Assembly (NCBI RefSeq): GCF_000421605.1
Contig: NZ_ATXI01000011.1
Coordinates: 1 to 63,300, forward strand
From: Thermodesulfobacterium thermophilum DSM 1276
GTDB taxonomy: Bacteria; Desulfobacterota; Thermodesulfobacteria; Thermodesulfobacteriales; Thermodesulfobacteriaceae
Length of the DNA: 63,300 nt
Reading direction: 5' to 3'
Made by a program: the position numbers and the translations under genes. The notes beneath the pieces are model-generated. The model made no database searches and had not been told where the DNA came from. It was given only the letters and a program-made list of their open reading frames with translations. Shown piece by piece: positions 2,892 to 12,217 of this stretch (its first letter is position 1; every line of letters begins with the position of its first letter).

Positions 2892-3251
2892 CTAACAAAA
2901 TACTGTCCCTGGTAAAGCTTTAGAGATTAATTCTTCATTTTCAGCAAGACCGAAAGTTGTAAACAAGTTGCTCATTGCATTAATTTTACTTATACCAGTA
3001 TACACAGTAAAAATTAAAACAATCAGTCCGAATAAACTTACAGATATAAACCAAGCATTCACATACTTTACTTCTCTATAAATACTCAAAACCGATAAAC
3101 CAAAAAGCACTATAGGGATAACGTAAAGAAGGTAACCTATGCCTCCGACATGATGAATGTAAGCAATAAGCCCACTACCTGTCGCAACCGGCATAAAAAT
3201 ACCAATAATACCGAAAAAACTTAACACCACCCTTACCACCTTGATTTTCAT
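2892..3251 (-). CDS. Small integral membrane protein of unknown function
   Basis: The product is 119 residues, started at the ATG at 3251 because gaggagg sits 8 bases upstream; an in-frame ATG at 3293 lacks such a site and overlaps the upstream gene. Three or four hydrophobic stretches are visible: VVRVVLSFFGIIGIFMPV, YLLYVIPIVLFGLSVL and WFISVSLFGLIVLIFTV, with few charged residues between. The C-terminus ends abruptly in KALPGTVFC, so the gene may be shortened. It lies just downstream of the exported protein at 3277-3831 on the same strand and is probably cotranscribed with it. I recognise no family. Confidence 0.55.
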   Translation of the reverse strand: MKIKVVRVVLSFFGIIGIFMPVATGSGLIAYIHHVGGIGYLLYVIPIVLFGLSVLSIYREVKYVNAWFISVSLFGLIVLIFTVYTGISKINAMSNLFTTFGLAENEELISKALPGTVFC

Positions 3252-3831: not shown

Positions 3832-4414
3832 AGCCCCCTCCCCTCACTTAATTTTTTGCTTGTCTTCTCTTTTATACTTCCTTCTTAATTATTAATAACT
3901 AATAACATGTGTCAAGTCTGACTTAAATAGATGAGAAAAGGAACTTGAGGTGTTCTCCATTTTTGAGTCCTTTTTTGAGAAGGATGTTTCAGAAAGGGCT
4001 TAAAAAGTGTTGGTAGGTATTAAGATAGAAGGTTCTATCTTGATGGAGAAAAGGAATTAAAGGTTTCAACTTTATAGCAGGGAGGAGGTTTGAAATCATC
4101 AAGGGCATTTGCAGGGCTACCTTCAATTTACCTTCAATTTAAGATATTCCCCAAATTGCCAATAAAAATTTATATTCATTCATGTGTTCCCCATTTTCCA
4201 ATTTATATAAACGATTTATAATATCATCCATCAGGTGAAAAATCCCTAAACCTAAGAGGATTTTGTTATGCCACAAAATTCTCTTAACTTCAAAAATCCT
4301 GAGAACTCACAAAAACCTAACCTCTCGTTCAGGATTTTTTTTGTTGATGCCTTTACCGGGTTCAAACAGGGGTTACAGCGCCTGGCAATATAAGCAGAAA
4401 ATCAGACAGCCAAG
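3832..4414. other. Intergenic stretch with decayed sequence
   Basis: No gene is supported. Visible structure: a perfect 9-2-9 inverted repeat at 4022-4041 (aagatagaa/ttctatctt), a 9-base tandem duplication ttcaattta-ccttcaattta near 4120-4141, and the terminator-like hairpin at 4292-4339. A 42-codon frame at 4269-4394 has a start but no convincing ribosome binding site. The stretch leads into an IS1380-like transposase remnant and is probably the worn-down remainder of mobile elements. Confidence 0.4.
4292..4341 (+). terminator. Terminator-like hairpin with a long loop
   Basis: Two 11-base arms (aaaaatcctga at 4292-4302 and tcaggattttt at 4329-4339) are exact reverse complements separated by 26 bases, and a run of T follows the second arm. 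On the plus strand this has the shape of an intrinsic terminator. The loop is unusually long, and no complete plus-strand gene lies upstream, so it may instead be a remnant of a mobile-element end or of a small RNA. Confidence 0.35.
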
Positions 4415-4546
4415 ATGACTTACAAGGGATTTCGTGGATATAGACCTATCATTACGGCATTTAAAGAGATACCTTTGATAGTTTATCATGAATTTAAGGA
4501 AGGCAATAGGCATGATGGACATGTAAGGCGAGGCAGTCAATTTTGA
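4415..4546 (+). pseudogene. IS1380-like transposase fragment
   Basis: The plus-strand frame reads TYKGFRGYRPIITAFKEI and then YHEFKEGNRHDGH before a stop at 4544-4546. The pattern Y-x-G-x-x-G-Y-x-P, a hydrophobic strand and then E-F-x-x-G-N is the usual middle part of IS1380-family DDE transposases. Both the upstream catalytic Asp region and the C-terminal Glu region are missing or unreadable, so this is a relic. It sits directly upstream of the TPR-Ppx/helicase module and may mark how that module arrived. Confidence 0.5.
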
Positions 4547-4812
4547 AGGTTGTGGTGGGGGTTGACAAGTTTAGGGAGTATTTGAGTATAAAAACACGGT
4601 TAGAGGAGTTAAATGGGTTGACGTAAGAGGTGGGGATAGTAGAGTTTATATATGAGGAGGTAAAAAGAGGATATGGGAGTTTTTAAGTCTAAAGATTACG
4701 GAAAGATTTCTGATTTTATTCTCTATCGGCAAAATTGGGAAATATTCCCCCTGTTAGACAGAAAAAAGCTTTCGGGTTATATTAAATGGAGAAGTTGAGA
4801 AGGGGGTAAAGT
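4547..4812. other. Short non-coding leader before the TPR-Ppx gene
   Basis: No supported gene. Reading plus-strand frames gives only short peptides broken by stops (for example IVEFIYEEVKRG at about 4638-4673), probably more transposon debris. No convincing promoter could be picked, though the transcript for the module should start here. A ribosome binding site (aaggggg) lies just before the ATG at 4813. Confidence 0.35.
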
Positions 4813-6732
4813 ATGAAGTTAAGAGCTATTTTAAGCTTCCTACTTCTTGTCCTTGCTCTAACCTCCCTTGCAAGGGCTCAAAATCCGATTGAGACCTGCT
4901 TTAACTACCTTGAGGCACAGGACTACAAGAGGGCGATAGAGGCAGGAAAGGTTGCTGTAAGGCTTTATCCAAATGTGTCTCTCTCTCACCTCTGCCTCGG
5001 AAAAGCTTACTTGAACACAGGGCAGGTTGACCTTGCCCTTGAATCTTTTAAGAAGGCTGAAAGAGAATCCCGAACAAAAGAAGAGCTTGCAGTTGTCTAC
5101 AACTGGATGGGGATGGCATACGATAAAAAAGGTCTTCTGGATGAGGCTCTTCTCTACTACAGCAAAGACCTCCACCTTAGTAAGGAGCTTGGAGACAAAA
5201 GAGGGGAAGCGGCAAGTTTGAATAATATAGCAGGTATATACCGGAGAAAAGGTGAATATCAAAAGGCCCTTGAATACTACAATGAGTCCCTGAGGCTTAA
5301 AACGGATGAAAAGGAAAAAGCGGTAACCTACAACAACATAGCTACCCTCTACTCAGACCTTGGAGACTACAAGAAGGCTGTGGAGCATTACAAAAAGTCT
5401 CTGGAAATTGACGAAAGATATGGTAACTACCATGGGTATGCTGCAACTCTTCTCAACCTTGGCAACATATATAGAAAAATGAAAGACTACAAGCAGGCAG
5501 AGGCTTGCCTTCTTGAAGGTTTAAAAAGGGTCAAGAAGATAGAAGACAGATTTTGGGAAGGTGTGGCATACGTATACCTTGGCTTGCTGTACAGAGACAC
5601 GGGCAACAGAGCCCTTGCTAAGGAATACCTCAACAAGGCTCTTAGGACCTTTCAGGAGATAGGAGCGCAGGAATCTGCCCTTGAAGCGCTTGCTTATCTT
5701 TATGAGCTTGAAAAGGTTGCGACTACCTTATACGGAGGGGTTGAGGTTGGGTCAAAGGGGGTTAAGGCTATTGCCCTTGAGCTTAAGCTTTCAGGGGATG
5801 AGCTTTATGAGATAAAGGAGCTTTACCGTGAAAGCATAAACACGACCATCATTGCGGGTGTCAAGGAGACGGGAAGATTTTCTAAGGATGGCATCGAAGA
5901 GACGATGAGGGCTCTTGCCTCTCTGATTGAGGGCATAAAAAAGGTAGGGGTCCCGGAGAAGAATATTTTTGTTGTGGCAAGCAGTGCTATCTCCGGTGTC
6001 TCAAACGTGGATGAGTTTGCAAGGGCTGTAAAGGAGAAAACAGGTTATGAGCTAATCCTTCTTGACAAGGATGGCGAGGTTCTTTACAACATTGTTGGTG
6101 CCGTGCCTAACAAGTATTTATACAGTTCTGTTGTTGTGGACATAGGGAGCGGAAATACGAAGATTGGGTATTTAGAGGAGGTGGGAGGGAAGCCCTTTGT
6201 GAGAAGCTTTGAGATACCCTATGGGACGGTGAGCCTCACCGAGGAGGCAAAAAAGAGGGGAAGCTTGAGGGCAGGTTTGAGGGAAGTGATAGAGAAAGAG
6301 GTGATCCCCCTTGTTAAGAGAGAGATGGAGAAGAAGCCAGCCTTCAAGAGCAGGAAAAGCGTATTCCTGATAGGTGGTATAGTTTGGGCGACCGTGAGCT
6401 TAACCATGCCAGAAAGCGTTGAGGAAAGTTATGTCAGGGTAAAGGTCTCAAAGGTTGAGGAACTGAGGAAGGCTTTAAGGGCTAATCCCAAGAGGGCTTT
6501 AAATCCAGATCTTTCAAAGCTCTCAGGGGAGAAGAGGGAGAGGGCGTTAAAGGCTTTGCAGAGGGTAAGGGAGGTATTTTCTGAGGAGAACTTAGTAGCG
6601 GGGACGGAGCTTTTGCGGGCCATACTTGTTAATCTTGGGACAGAGGGGAGGGAGTTGATTTTCCCGAGGCAGGGGAACTGGCTTATTGGCTACGTAGTGT
6701 TGAATGGCTATTTTGCCGAGGTAAAAAGGTAG
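4813..6732 (+). CDS. TPR-repeat protein with signal peptide and Ppx/GppA-like ASKHA domain
   Basis: This 639-aa protein starts with a strong Sec signal (MKLRAILSFLLLVLAL, likely cut after LARA). Residues about 25-300 form six or seven TPR units, such as AASLNNIAGIYRRKGEYQKA and AVTYNNIATLYSDLGDYKKA. Residues about 305-639 match the Ppx/GppA phosphatase fold: GVEVGSKGVKA (first phosphate loop), ASSAISGVSN (about 389), a GE pair in DGEVLYNIVGA where the family has its catalytic Glu, VVDIGSGNTKIGY (second phosphate loop, about 440), PYGTVSLTE, and LIGGIVWAT at the place of the usual GGT loop. Ppx/GppA enzymes hydrolyse polyphosphate or pppGpp in the cytoplasm, so an exported or membrane-anchored version is odd. 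The next gene, an SF1 helicase, starts 3 bases after the stop. Codon use is richer in G/C than the surrounding genes, suggesting transfer. Confidence 0.8.
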   Translation: MKLRAILSFLLLVLALTSLARAQNPIETCFNYLEAQDYKRAIEAGKVAVRLYPNVSLSHLCLGKAYLNTGQVDLALESFKKAERESRTKEELAVVYNWMGMAYDKKGLLDEALLYYSKDLHLSKELGDKRGEAASLNNIAGIYRRKGEYQKALEYYNESLRLKTDEKEKAVTYNNIATLYSDLGDYKKAVEHYKKSLEIDERYGNYHGYAATLLNLGNIYRKMKDYKQAEACLLEGLKRVKKIEDRFWEGVAYVYLGLLYRDTGNRALAKEYLNKALRTFQEIGAQESALEALAYLYELEKVATTLYGGVEVGSKGVKAIALELKLSGDELYEIKELYRESINTTIIAGVKETGRFSKDGIEETMRALASLIEGIKKVGVPEKNIFVVASSAISGVSNVDEFARAVKEKTGYELILLDKDGEVLYNIVGAVPNKYLYSSVVVDIGSGNTKIGYLEEVGGKPFVRSFEIPYGTVSLTEEAKKRGSLRAGLREVIEKEVIPLVKREMEKKPAFKSRKSVFLIGGIVWATVSLTMPESVEESYVRVKVSKVEELRKALRANPKRALNPDLSKLSGEKRERALKALQRVREVFSEENLVAGTELLRAILVNLGTEGRELIFPRQGNWLIGYVVLNGYFAEVKR

Positions 6733-6735
6733 GGT

Positions 6736-9700
6736 ATGGTAAATTTAAACAAAGCTTTGGGTAAAGAGGCTCTGGAGATAAGACATCTTAAATACTATAG
6801 GGAGATAGTCCTGCCTTCTCTATTCAAGGAGAGTTACGAAGAGTTCAAAGAAAGCCACGAAGAGTTTAAAAATAAAGGTCAAAAGAGCAATACACAGGAA
6901 GAAGGAGTAAAACTCCTTCCTCAAGTTTCCGAAGAAGACCTGTTGAACTTTCTTAAGGGCTTAAAAGAGCCCAACGCATTAGAAAGCATAGCCAAACCTA
7001 TTGCAGATGCACTCCTTGAAGAAATACAAAGGAGAAAAGGCTCTAAAGAGGAGGGAGAAGGTGGGGAGCTTCCCCTTGCCCTATGCGTATACAAAGAAGG
7101 CAGAAAATTCCTTGTTCCCCTACTTGTTTGGGTAAGTTTAGATTCCAGTGAGGACACCTATACAATAAGGCTTCTTGACCTTCCGCAAGTTAACAAACAT
7201 TATGTCTATTCAAAAGACGAAGAAGAGGCTTACCTGCCTCTTTTCAGAGAGGACGAGTTAGAAAGGCTGTATCCTGAAACCTTAAGTGTGGACGAGAATG
7301 GAATTGTATCGCTACCAGAAAAGTGGGAACCCTTTGTAGATGAGCTTCTAAATACCATTAAAGAGCGATTTTCGGAATATAAAGGTTCCATAAATTTTGC
7401 TACGCACCTCGGCATAGTGATTTCTCCATGGATAACGAGCCTGTATGAAGCTTATGAAAAACTAATCAAGTGGCTTAAAAAAAGCGATGAAGGTAAGGTC
7501 TCGCTTGAGCTTTTGAAAGAGTTCATAGCCGGTTCAGACCCTGAAAGACAGGAAAAGAATATGGAAAGGGAGCTTATAGAGAGCCTCCTGCATAGTCCAA
7601 AGCTAACCCTTTATGGACAGTTTAATTTCAACATTGCCGGAAACAGGGTCTTTGGTCTTAACTTAGAACAAAGGATATTTCTCAATGAGATGCTAAATGG
7701 CAATCCAAACTTGATTGAAGCTCTCAACGGTCCACCAGGGACGGGCAAAACCACAAGTCTTCAAACTCTTGCCGCTTCTTTGTTTGTCAGAAGCTACCTG
7801 CAGAAGGAAAAATCACCCATCATGGTGGGCATGTCCTTCACAAGGCAAGCCAAAAACAACATAATTGAAGGCTTTAGGATTGAAGAAAAAACAGAACAGG
7901 AGAACCACAAAAGGATAGGTGTTATCGCAAGAAGATTTCTGAGGACTAAAGAGGGAAAACCTCTTCATTACGGAATAAGCCTTGGCTATGGTGACAGCGA
8001 GCAGGATTACAATTTCTACAAATCACTTTATCAGGAATTAATAGGGGATGTTGAAGGCTTCTTAGATGGGCTGAAAACTCTAAAGGACAATCAAGAGGTT
8101 AGAAATTTCCTAAGGGTTACCTTCAAGGAAAATATTGAGAGGATCGGAAGGTTTTTAAACCTTTTTGCGGATGTTGAATACGGGAAATTAGAAGAAAGGC
8201 TTGAAGAAGCGATCAAACTAACCTACGAAGCGCTGATAGATTGGCATGCTCTGAGAAAGGATATAACTGAATGCCTCAACAAGCTTAACCCCTTAGAGGA
8301 GGAGATAAAGAGCCTTGAAAGAAAGTGCGATGAATTAAAGGAAAGGCTTGAGACACTTCAAGTTTGTGAGAAGAACTTTGAAGATTATGTTAAAACTCTT
8401 CCCTTCTATGTCAGATGGTTTTCTTTCTTTCAGATGCCCAGCCATTTAGAGGGCTTTCTGCATAGCGTGAGTGGGCTTGTTGATGTGCCAGAGGGTCTTT
8501 ATAAAATTGGAGATGTCAGAAGATTTTTAATTTCGGAAAGGACTAAAACCCAAGGAAACTTGAAAAGAAAGGAAGAGGAACTTTTAAAGAAAAAGAAGAG
8601 CTTTGAAAAGTTAAAAGGACAAATACGCGGCCTCAATTCCCTGCTTGATACCCTACAGAGAGTTTATCCTCTTGAAAACTTTAGCGCCATTAAGAATGCT
8701 CTGGAAAAAGGGCCAAAGGAAGCCTACCTGGAGCTATCTCACATCATAGATAACTTCTGTGCTTTTTTGTTGTTCAACCTCGTGATGAGAAAATGTGAGC
8801 TTGATTACTGGAAGAAGTTTACTGCTCAGGGAGTAGCTTACGAATTGAGTATAAAAATAAAGAACATACTCAAATCAGCTTTGAAGAGCTACATATTGTC
8901 TCCCGGGTTTGAAGAGGTACTTTCGCATATTGTAGAGCCTCTTATCAATAATTACCTGAACCTCACAGAAGCGGTGAAGGAGGTAGAGCATAGATTACTC
9001 AAGAAACTTGCTGCGGTTGAGGAGGTTTTTGCAGAAACACTTGAAGAAGCAATAGAGAAGATTGCATCCAACAAGAAGTTAAAGATCAAGGCAGAAAGCC
9101 TGAATGAAATTTTAAGCCTTATGAGAGCCGATAAAGGCGAGAACCAAGAAAAAGCTTCCCTTTATATAAATTCTTCTAAGGTAATACTGTGCTACTCTTC
9201 TACTGCTCATGCTCTTTATAACCGTTTTTCCAAAAAAGAAGGCCCCCTGGTGAAATTCATAGATTACCTCTTTGTGGACGAGGCTGGACAGGTTTCGCCC
9301 GAAGCGGGAGCACACGCCACTCTTCTTGCTAAAAGGATAATATGTGTTGGCGACACCATGCAGCTACAGCCTGTTTACAACATAACTTCAAATAGAGACT
9401 ATGCCATTTACAGAAGAATAGTAAATCCTTACATTTCCCAAGAGAAATTTGAAAAGTTACCCCATAACTGCTCTAACGGAAGCCTTATGAAGATAGCTCA
9501 GGAAAGGACATCCTACAACAAACAGTTTATGGATTTAGAGCCAGGCCTTTACCTTCTTGAACACCGAAGATGCCCAAAAGAAATCATAGAATTCTGCAAC
9601 ATAAACTTTTACAACGGAAGGCTCAGACCAGTTGAAAGCTTTGAGGACAGAAAGAAAAAGGGCACTATCCTTGACTGTCCGTGGGTCTTCGTTCACGTAA

Positions 9701-10212
9701 AAGGAAAAACTAAACGGTTAAGAGGTAGCAGGTGTAACGAGGAAGAAGCGAAATGCATTAAGAGGATAGTGGAAGAGTTCCAAAAGCTGAGAGGCGAGAG
9801 GGTCAAGCAGGAACTTGCGGTCATAACTCCCTTCAGGGAGCAGGAGAGAGTTCTGACGTATAAGCTTAAAGACATGATATACAAAAAACAGGATAAGGAT
9901 AAAAATGAGGATAAACTTGTAGTAGGTACTATCCACAAACTCCAAGGAGCAGAAAGGAAGATAATCATCTTCTCTACAGTTTACGACAGGGAACACAGGG
10001 ATAAAAATGTATTTATGGACAAGCACATGCTCAACGTTCTGGTTTCAAGGGCGAAGGAGAGCATAATAGTTGTTGGGGATATGGAATTCTTGTCCGGCAC
10101 CAAAAACGCTCTTGTCAGCAGCCTTTATCACTACTCGAGAGGGGAGAATTTCTTCAGAGAGTTTTCCAATTGTGAGGAGGCAATTGCTTACATAAGGTCA
10201 GTTTTTTCTTAA
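6736..10212 (+). CDS. Large SF1 helicase of the DNA2/NAM7 (UPF1-like) group
   Basis: This 1,158-aa protein has Walker A GPPGTGKTTS near residue 332, Walker B VDEAGQVSPEAG near 847, GDTMQLQPV (motif III), LLEHRRCPKE (motif IV, about 940), VGTIHKLQGAERK (motif V, about 1063) and LNVLVSRAKES (motif VI, about 1097). About 510 residues separate Walker A from Walker B; this insert contains coiled coil (about 509-545 and 600-640). The N-terminal 330 residues have no recognised domain and include a small tandem repeat (SYEEFKE/SHEEFKN) near 33-48. Helicases of this layout unwind or translocate on nucleic acid and recur in prokaryotic defence loci. It is coupled to the TPR-Ppx gene by a 3-base gap, and both share G/C-rich codon use. 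The partner, not the helicase, is the novel part. Confidence 0.85.
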   Translation: MVNLNKALGKEALEIRHLKYYREIVLPSLFKESYEEFKESHEEFKNKGQKSNTQEEGVKLLPQVSEEDLLNFLKGLKEPNALESIAKPIADALLEEIQRRKGSKEEGEGGELPLALCVYKEGRKFLVPLLVWVSLDSSEDTYTIRLLDLPQVNKHYVYSKDEEEAYLPLFREDELERLYPETLSVDENGIVSLPEKWEPFVDELLNTIKERFSEYKGSINFATHLGIVISPWITSLYEAYEKLIKWLKKSDEGKVSLELLKEFIAGSDPERQEKNMERELIESLLHSPKLTLYGQFNFNIAGNRVFGLNLEQRIFLNEMLNGNPNLIEALNGPPGTGKTTSLQTLAASLFVRSYLQKEKSPIMVGMSFTRQAKNNIIEGFRIEEKTEQENHKRIGVIARRFLRTKEGKPLHYGISLGYGDSEQDYNFYKSLYQELIGDVEGFLDGLKTLKDNQEVRNFLRVTFKENIERIGRFLNLFADVEYGKLEERLEEAIKLTYEALIDWHALRKDITECLNKLNPLEEEIKSLERKCDELKERLETLQVCEKNFEDYVKTLPFYVRWFSFFQMPSHLEGFLHSVSGLVDVPEGLYKIGDVRRFLISERTKTQGNLKRKEEELLKKKKSFEKLKGQIRGLNSLLDTLQRVYPLENFSAIKNALEKGPKEAYLELSHIIDNFCAFLLFNLVMRKCELDYWKKFTAQGVAYELSIKIKNILKSALKSYILSPGFEEVLSHIVEPLINNYLNLTEAVKEVEHRLLKKLAAVEEVFAETLEEAIEKIASNKKLKIKAESLNEILSLMRADKGENQEKASLYINSSKVILCYSSTAHALYNRFSKKEGPLVKFIDYLFVDEAGQVSPEAGAHATLLAKRIICVGDTMQLQPVYNITSNRDYAIYRRIVNPYISQEKFEKLPHNCSNGSLMKIAQERTSYNKQFMDLEPGLYLLEHRRCPKEIIEFCNINFYNGRLRPVESFEDRKKKGTILDCPWVFVHVKGKTKRLRGSRCNEEEAKCIKRIVEEFQKLRGERVKQELAVITPFREQERVLTYKLKDMIYKKQDKDKNEDKLVVGTIHKLQGAERKIIIFSTVYDREHRDKNVFMDKHMLNVLVSRAKESIIVVGDMEFLSGTKNALVSSLYHYSRGENFFREFSNCEEAIAYIRSVFS

Positions 10213-11675: not shown

Positions 11676-11957
11676 TTAAAATATTTTGGAAAACAAAAAA
11701 TAACTTTTTAATAAAAACACCAAACATTAATAATGTCAAGTATGGGCGAGGGTGTTGTAAAATTAGGTATTCTTAGAGTATAAATTTGGAGGTAGCTTCC
11801 AAATAGAAGCAGGGTAAAGAGAAAGTTTAAGGATTAAGGAAGTAAGGTTAGGCCCAGCTATAAGAATGAAGGAGACTTTAAGGCAGAAGATAGGGCATTT
11901 TCAATACTCTCACAGAATGTCAACACTAAAACCCTATCCCTTGAACATCAAGAAACA
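11676..11957. other. Gap between nuclease gene and tRNA-Pro
   Basis: About 280 bases. I see no gene. A short plus-strand frame (MKETLRQKIGHFQYSHRM, near 11867) could be mobile-element debris but lacks a ribosome binding site and homology I can name. No attachment-site duplicate of the tRNA 3' end was found by eye within the first 12 kb. Confidence 0.3.
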
Positions 11958-12031
11958 TCGGGGCGAGAGGATTTGAACCTCCGACCCCCTGCTCCCAAGG
12001 CAGGTGCGCTCCCAAGCTGCGCTACGCCCCG
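11958..12031 (-). tRNA. tRNA-Pro (anticodon UGG)
   Basis: The minus strand folds as a complete cloverleaf. The acceptor stem is CGGGGCG/CGCCCCG, the anticodon stem is CCTGC/GCAGG with loop CTTGGGA (anticodon TGG), and the T arm carries GGTTCGAATCC. The discriminator base is A, and no CCA is encoded. The gene forms the border between the accessory region on its left and the conserved ORP and dcw clusters on its right; tRNA genes are frequent integration points for islands. Confidence 0.95.
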
Positions 12032-12217
12032 ATAGTTTTTATTTTGATTACAATATAACTTATTCGTTAAATTTTACAACACTTAAATAGCTAAGATTTT
12101 TTGAATTTTTTAATCCTGTATATACCTTCTGATAAGGTTTAAGAAAAATAATTTGTTGTTCAGGCTTAGTCGTTTGATTTTGAGGCTATATGGTAGTTTT
12201 TTAACTTTTTTAAGAAC

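Follow-up and report, generated by a model that had tools for sequence, protein, structure and literature searches.

Two adjacent genes on a strain-specific stretch

We analysed a 63,300-nt stretch of the Thermodesulfobacterium thermophilum DSM 1276 genome (hereafter the window), near the start of which two genes, A and B, lie on the same strand only 3 nt apart, as an initial annotation made from the sequence alone had reported (Table 1). Its description of A as a protein with a Sec signal, TPR repeats and a Ppx/GppA-type ASKHA domain is borne out by Pfam (TPR_12, 6.8e-38; Ppx-GppA PF02541, 5.9e-17) and by a confident AlphaFold model (mean pLDDT 94), in which a TPR superhelix, comprising about eight repeat units, accompanies a Ppx/GppA fold. 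The best PDB matches of this model include consensus TPR superhelices and the Aquifex Ppx/GppA structure 1t6d (TMt 0.77), and PHROGs returned only families of unknown function, matching in the TPR part or across the TPR/ASKHA junction (phrog_5208, 2e-16, aa 165–343). Of 13 complete close relatives, 12 carry a signal of the same type (L031 and L149 being judged by eye), and A is predicted to be exported or, alternatively, anchored by its N-terminus.

Gene B encodes a UPF1/DNA2-like SF1 helicase with all SF1 motifs intact (AAA_12, 2.1e-30; AAA_11, 9.5e-11), whose closest solved relatives are UPF1, NAM7, DNA2 and SMUBP-2. The reported spacing of the two Walker motifs, about 510 residues, proved correct (Walker A at residue 332, Walker B at residue 847), and part of this span is predicted to form an antiparallel helical insert. 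Unlike that of A, the predicted structure of B is poor outside the helicase core (mean pLDDT 55), and only the insert was used, with pLDDT 70–86 at its core and low values around it. PHROGs gave generic helicase families only, and the top PADLOC model was MkoC of Mokosh type II (6.3e-128, 426.6 bits), a likeness that the initial annotation had missed. Mokosh systems are defined by two parts, a COG1112 helicase and a PLD nuclease, encoded by one gene in type II and by separate genes, together with a kinase domain, in type I (PMC11672841). B shares the UPF1-like COG1112 core with MkoC but stops after motif VI, with no PLDc match, no HKD region and no STK; judged on its sequence, it is Mokosh-like yet lacks one of the features that define Mokosh. 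The PLD domain is also absent from the other helicases adjoining TPR-ASKHA genes. Among MkoC relatives in viral contigs it is present in three (L120–L122) and absent from one (L119), which argues that its absence from B is not simply decay.

Table 1. Features at the locus, in window coordinates
Feature	Position	Strand	Evidence or remark
Schlafen group-3 type SF1 helicase, 646 aa	869–2809	-	PF09848 5.8e-6; PADLOC C3a187 NERD+UvrD 9.4e-12
c3-like, small multi-TM protein	2892–3251	-	hhalign E 1.4e-4, probability 53%; start set at internal ATG
c1, exported protein, 184 aa	3277–3831	-	Family adjoins TPR-ASKHA genes in Aquificota and Thermodesulfovibrio
IS relic between c1 and A	4180–4790	+	Partly matched at 18 further places in this genome
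Gene A, exported TPR-ASKHA (Ppx/GppA-fold) protein, 639 aa	4813–6732	+	ORF call, Pfam, AlphaFold model
Sec signal peptide of A (predicted, ARA|Q site)	4813–4878	+	MKLRAILSFLLLVLALTSLARA|QN
ASKHA (Ppx/GppA-fold) domain of A, aa 302–639	5716–6729	+	Invariant K318, E422, D443 and GSGNTK (445–450)
Gene B, UPF1/DNA2-like SF1 helicase, MkoC-like, no PLD domain, 1,158 aa	6736–10212	+	
Walker A of B, GPPGTGKT, aa 332–339	7729–7752	+	
Antiparallel helical (coiled-coil) insert of B, predicted, between Walker A and B, aa 482–643	8179–8664	+	Model
Walker B of B, VDEAGQ, aa 847–852	9274–9291	+	
PD-(D/E)XK nuclease, Cas4-like, 234 aa	10971–11675	-	PF12705 1e-10; PADLOC Cas4 9e-9
Right edge of strain-specific stretch, with tRNA-Pro(TGG) at 11957–12032	11918–12032	-	Synteny with three genus relatives ends at 11918, 39 bases 3′ of the tRNA

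The pair lies on strain-specific DNA. Three genus relatives align from the right edge onwards (G013 at 98.7%, G006 at 92% and G010 at 73–90%), and nothing of what lies to its left was found in the matching stretches of the same three genomes. This break in synteny, which had gone unremarked, lies beside a tRNA-Pro gene, the sole match in a scan for RNA families, and likely marks a variable site; since the window begins where the contig does, the left end of the strain-specific stretch lies outside view. The G/C-rich codon use noted earlier is reflected in GC3 values of 0.52 for A and 0.44 for B, against about 0.28–0.30 for neighbouring core genes, and the flanking IS relic was confirmed upstream of A. 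Beyond this relic, on the strand opposite to A, lie two small genes that the initial annotation had overlooked, c1 and a gene whose product is probably a relative of the c3 membrane protein, in a layout that would fit the rearrangement of an older operon. The Schlafen-type helicase, in the same strain-specific stretch, is possibly a further defence gene, and no cas genes were seen beside the Cas4-like nuclease.

Recurrence and transfer of A with a helicase

Full TPR-ASKHA relatives of A from Thermodesulfobacteriota, Nitrospirota and Aquificota provided 14 intact loci, among which the G026 copy, cut by the contig start, counts as intact for its visible part only. A Mokosh-like SF1 helicase gene lies downstream of A on the same strand in five of them (the window, G320, G026, G508 and G481), separated from A by 35 nt in G320, by a 97-aa exported gene, c6, in G026 and G508, and by the membrane-protein gene c3 in G481. 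The remaining nine (L031, L032, L033, L034, L036 and L149–L152) have no downstream helicase, no helicase of the same family was found elsewhere in the five helicase-free genomes searched (G419–G423), and the helicase partner is absent from all of the roughly 70 wider A-family loci checked. On a tree of A, a minimum of three changes in the helicase label is required, that is, repeated gain and/or loss, and the clade of the window A is otherwise free of helicases. Since the relatives of A mostly lack this partner, it is optional, and A has a helicase-free function.

Small genes recur beside A irrespective of this partner: c1 (about 185 aa, exported), c3 (90–122 aa, with several TM segments) and c6 (97–113 aa, exported). 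Gene order in helicase-free loci is A-c1-c3 (L031, L149) or c1-A (L150–L152), and c5 lipoproteins occur together with TraT in two TPR-ASKHA loci (L031 and L141).

The helicases of G320, G026, G508 and G481 constitute one subfamily (34–92% identity), to whose members the window B is 22–33% identical. In the collections searched, this subfamily was met only beside a TPR-ASKHA gene. Among 246 Nitrospirota genomes it is present at full length in two, both times adjoining the TPR-ASKHA gene, which itself occurs in four; the co-occurrence in genomes has a hypergeometric p of 2e-4, adjacency not counted in. Plasmids yielded only generic 32% partial matches to the subfamily. A phage origin was rejected for A and for this four-member subfamily, with no A in viral contigs and no member of the subfamily in viral contigs or phage records. 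The expectation that the two genes would be conserved together holds from the side of the helicase, four of the five paired helicases falling in a subfamily that, in these collections, always adjoined such a gene, but not from the side of A, whose homologues usually stand without one.

Evidence of joint movement came from two members of different phyla. G026, a Thermodesulfobacteriaceae MAG, and G508, from the Nitrospirota sample, have 3.9 kb in common at 94.7% DNA identity, spanning the C-terminal part of A, c6 and the helicase and stopping 7 bases after the helicase stop codon; the G026 contig starts inside A, and the left end of the common stretch is outside view there. This sharing indicates that A (at least its C-terminal part), c6 and the helicase were transferred together in one lineage. 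In G508, a dispersed repeat flanks the cassette on both sides in the same orientation (L140 6987–7174 and 12325–12513), and about ten longer copies of it are found in that genome. Together with the strain-specific setting of the window, the co-transfer upholds the earlier suggestion of a mobile cassette.

Chance adjacency of A and the helicase is rejected by the recurrence, by the rarity of the helicase subfamily and by the co-transfer. We are highly confident that the pairing is real, and consider it fairly probable that the two genes share a function. The pair is a real, mobile accessory cassette, apparently undescribed, found repeatedly in thermophiles from different phyla. Our literature search found nothing relevant on a Ppx/TPR/helicase system or a kinase–ASKHA system, and no described system of this make-up; the initial view of an undescribed system stands for the combination, but B itself is not of a new kind, given its likeness to MkoC.

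On the helicase tree the window helicase groups with MkoC (82/82) and not with the other four, and a single clade of all five has a p-AU of 0.158, by which a single origin is neither shown nor rejected. The window helicase may be a separate acquisition, and helicases may have come to fill this slot on two occasions, which would favour a functional link. The tree placement, the top score with MkoC and the otherwise helicase-free clade of the window A are also what one would see if B alone were a degenerate Mokosh II protein, an MkoC minus its PLD domain, with A as a chance neighbour. We regard this as highly improbable, since four other TPR-ASKHA genes also have PLD-less Mko-like helicases directly downstream and the viral-contig relative L119 likewise lacks the domain.

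A further explanation separates the two functions while accepting that the genes travel together: an envelope operon (A, c1, c3, c6 and TraT- and CsgG-like neighbours) would share a mobile cassette or a variable site with a Mokosh-like defence helicase that acts alone. Consistent with it, A keeps its c1, c3 and c6 partners with and without a helicase, two divergent helicase groups fill the slot, and the locus, next to a tRNA, is variable and carries IS relics. The operon-like spacings of 3 and 35 nt, the confinement of a rare helicase subfamily to the side of A in the samples searched, and a stretch common to two phyla that extends from within A and ends barely beyond the helicase all speak against it, and we consider this explanation somewhat unlikely.

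A tentative defence pathway and its relation to known systems

The reading that we prefer, though tentatively and at a little under even confidence, is that the mobile cassette unites the TPR-ASKHA protein, its small envelope partners (c1, c3 and c6) and a dedicated cytoplasmic Mokosh-like helicase in one pathway, most likely of defence against phages or incoming nucleic acid. The TPR/ASKHA protein would sense an event or ligand at the envelope, such as a phosphate-rich nucleotide, a polymer or a peptidoglycan-bound partner; the membrane partner c3 would relay the signal inward; and the helicase would then bind and remodel foreign DNA or RNA, which would thereby be blocked or passed on to a nuclease of the host. 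As a route from the exported A to the helicase, c3 is a weak candidate. Because B has no nuclease, an effector step is missing from this scheme. In its favour are the recurrent pairing, the rare helicase subfamily and the stretch common to G026 and G508, as well as the patchy, island-like placement at tRNA-Pro in the company of the Schlafen-type helicase and the PD-(D/E)XK nuclease, which are defence-like. Against a defence pairing stand the nine of 14 close A relatives, and the whole of the wider family checked, that do without such a helicase.

A broader version of this proposal, which we think unlikely, holds that the exported ASKHA sensor family represents a novel type of defence by signalling from envelope to genome, triggered on envelope breach and acting through varied effectors: Mokosh-like helicases here, and Ser/Thr kinases or tubulin-like proteins elsewhere.

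Several known systems share parts of this architecture. Relative to Mokosh type II, the locus differs not only in the missing PLD nuclease and STK but also in having an exported TPR-ASKHA partner. Type I (MkoA/MkoB) shares the SF1 helicase core, and the G026 helicase has MkoA as its top match (2.9e-60); here, however, B contains no kinase domain, no PLD gene was recognised beside B, and kinases are limited to distant relatives of A, either as neighbours or as fusions. In CoCoNuT types II and III, a UPF1-like CnuH helicase can occur with an Hsp70-like ASKHA module and TerY-P components (PMC11090510). The likeness lies in a UPF1-like helicase belonging to systems in which an ASKHA module may also be present, but that of A is exported and of the Ppx type rather than Hsp70-like, and Pfam identified neither a McrB GTPase nor McrC (CnuB/CnuC) in the window around B; the flanks of the relatives were read as ORFs. 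Zorya and Kiwa provide precedent for an envelope sensor working with a nucleic-acid effector (PMC12904381), and the resemblance is one of logic, with the effector placed in the cytoplasm: no homologous parts were recognised, and the locus has no ZorAB motor and no KwaAB. If A and B cooperate, they would add an example of an exported ASKHA protein tied to a helicase inside the cell. Mokosh-like helicases would then join Zorya and Kiwa in relying on an envelope sensor, and a branch of Mokosh that works without its nuclease would be indicated. Taken as a whole, the initial reading of the pair is partly supported.

The active site of A and its wider family

Across 84,980 species genomes, a scan turned up at least 373 loci that code for relatives of A. 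The family is spread over at least Thermodesulfobacteriota, Nitrospirota, Aquificota, Acidobacteriota, Planctomycetota, Bacteroidota and Cyanobacteria, and a crude test detected a signal peptide in 80 of 90 family members. We found no role described in the literature for this exported Ppx-like family. In a profile alignment to Aquifex Ppx, whose catalytic Glu pair we take to be E119 and E148, the first Glu corresponds to E422 of A and the second to K450. The residues K318, E422, D443 and the GSGNTK motif (445–450) are invariant in 46 aligned sequences from several phyla, so Lys450 stands in place of the second Ppx/GppA Glu in all 46. Because these residues are invariant and the second Glu aligns with a lysine, the site of A is conserved yet unlike that of a standard exopolyphosphatase, and for the latter reason we do not accept A as an ordinary exported Ppx enzyme. 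With the exopolyphosphatase and pppGpp hydrolase family it has in common the fold, PF02541 and one catalytic Glu; it differs by export, by fusion to TPR repeats and by the invariant lysine.

The same site bears on a reading in which defence plays no part, A being an ecto-type ASKHA hydrolase or chaperone that handles nucleotides, polyphosphate or nucleic acid at the envelope, and B processing DNA that is taken up or released. Exported ASKHA nucleotidases exist, namely the GDA1/CD39 NTPDases, and the invariance of the site, as well as the TraT and lipoprotein neighbours, is compatible with such an activity; the replacement of the second catalytic Glu is not readily so, and the patchy, mobile distribution and the MkoC likeness suit defence better. 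We judge this reading improbable and retain the defence pathway as our working proposal. Irrespective of the helicase, A exemplifies a large exported Ppx-like family with an altered, conserved active site and recurrent kinase and tubulin-like neighbours.

Distant members of the family occupy varied settings. Kinases adjoin distant A relatives at L030, L038, L044, L046, L065 and L075, and Cyanobacteria encode fusions of a zinc ribbon, a Ser/Thr kinase and the ASKHA domain of this family without a signal peptide (L066 6894–9062, L068 377–2542 and L078 3637–5952). On an Azospirillum lipoferum plasmid (L030 1088–11020), a cluster of FHA, two PP2C, trypsin-like and Ser/Thr kinase genes has a Ppx-like gene at its end. 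Tubulin_2 proteins are encoded near a Ppx-like ASKHA gene at L042 (3889–7080) and L052 (5280–8798), bringing tubulin-like and actin-fold genes together. In Acidobacteriota and Planctomycetota (L040, L043 and L044), two Ppx-like ASKHA genes adjoin each other or are one gene apart. Finally, one TPR-ASKHA copy in an Aquificota genome (G729; L154 8166–9034) has decayed, with two in-frame stops, a sign of loss.
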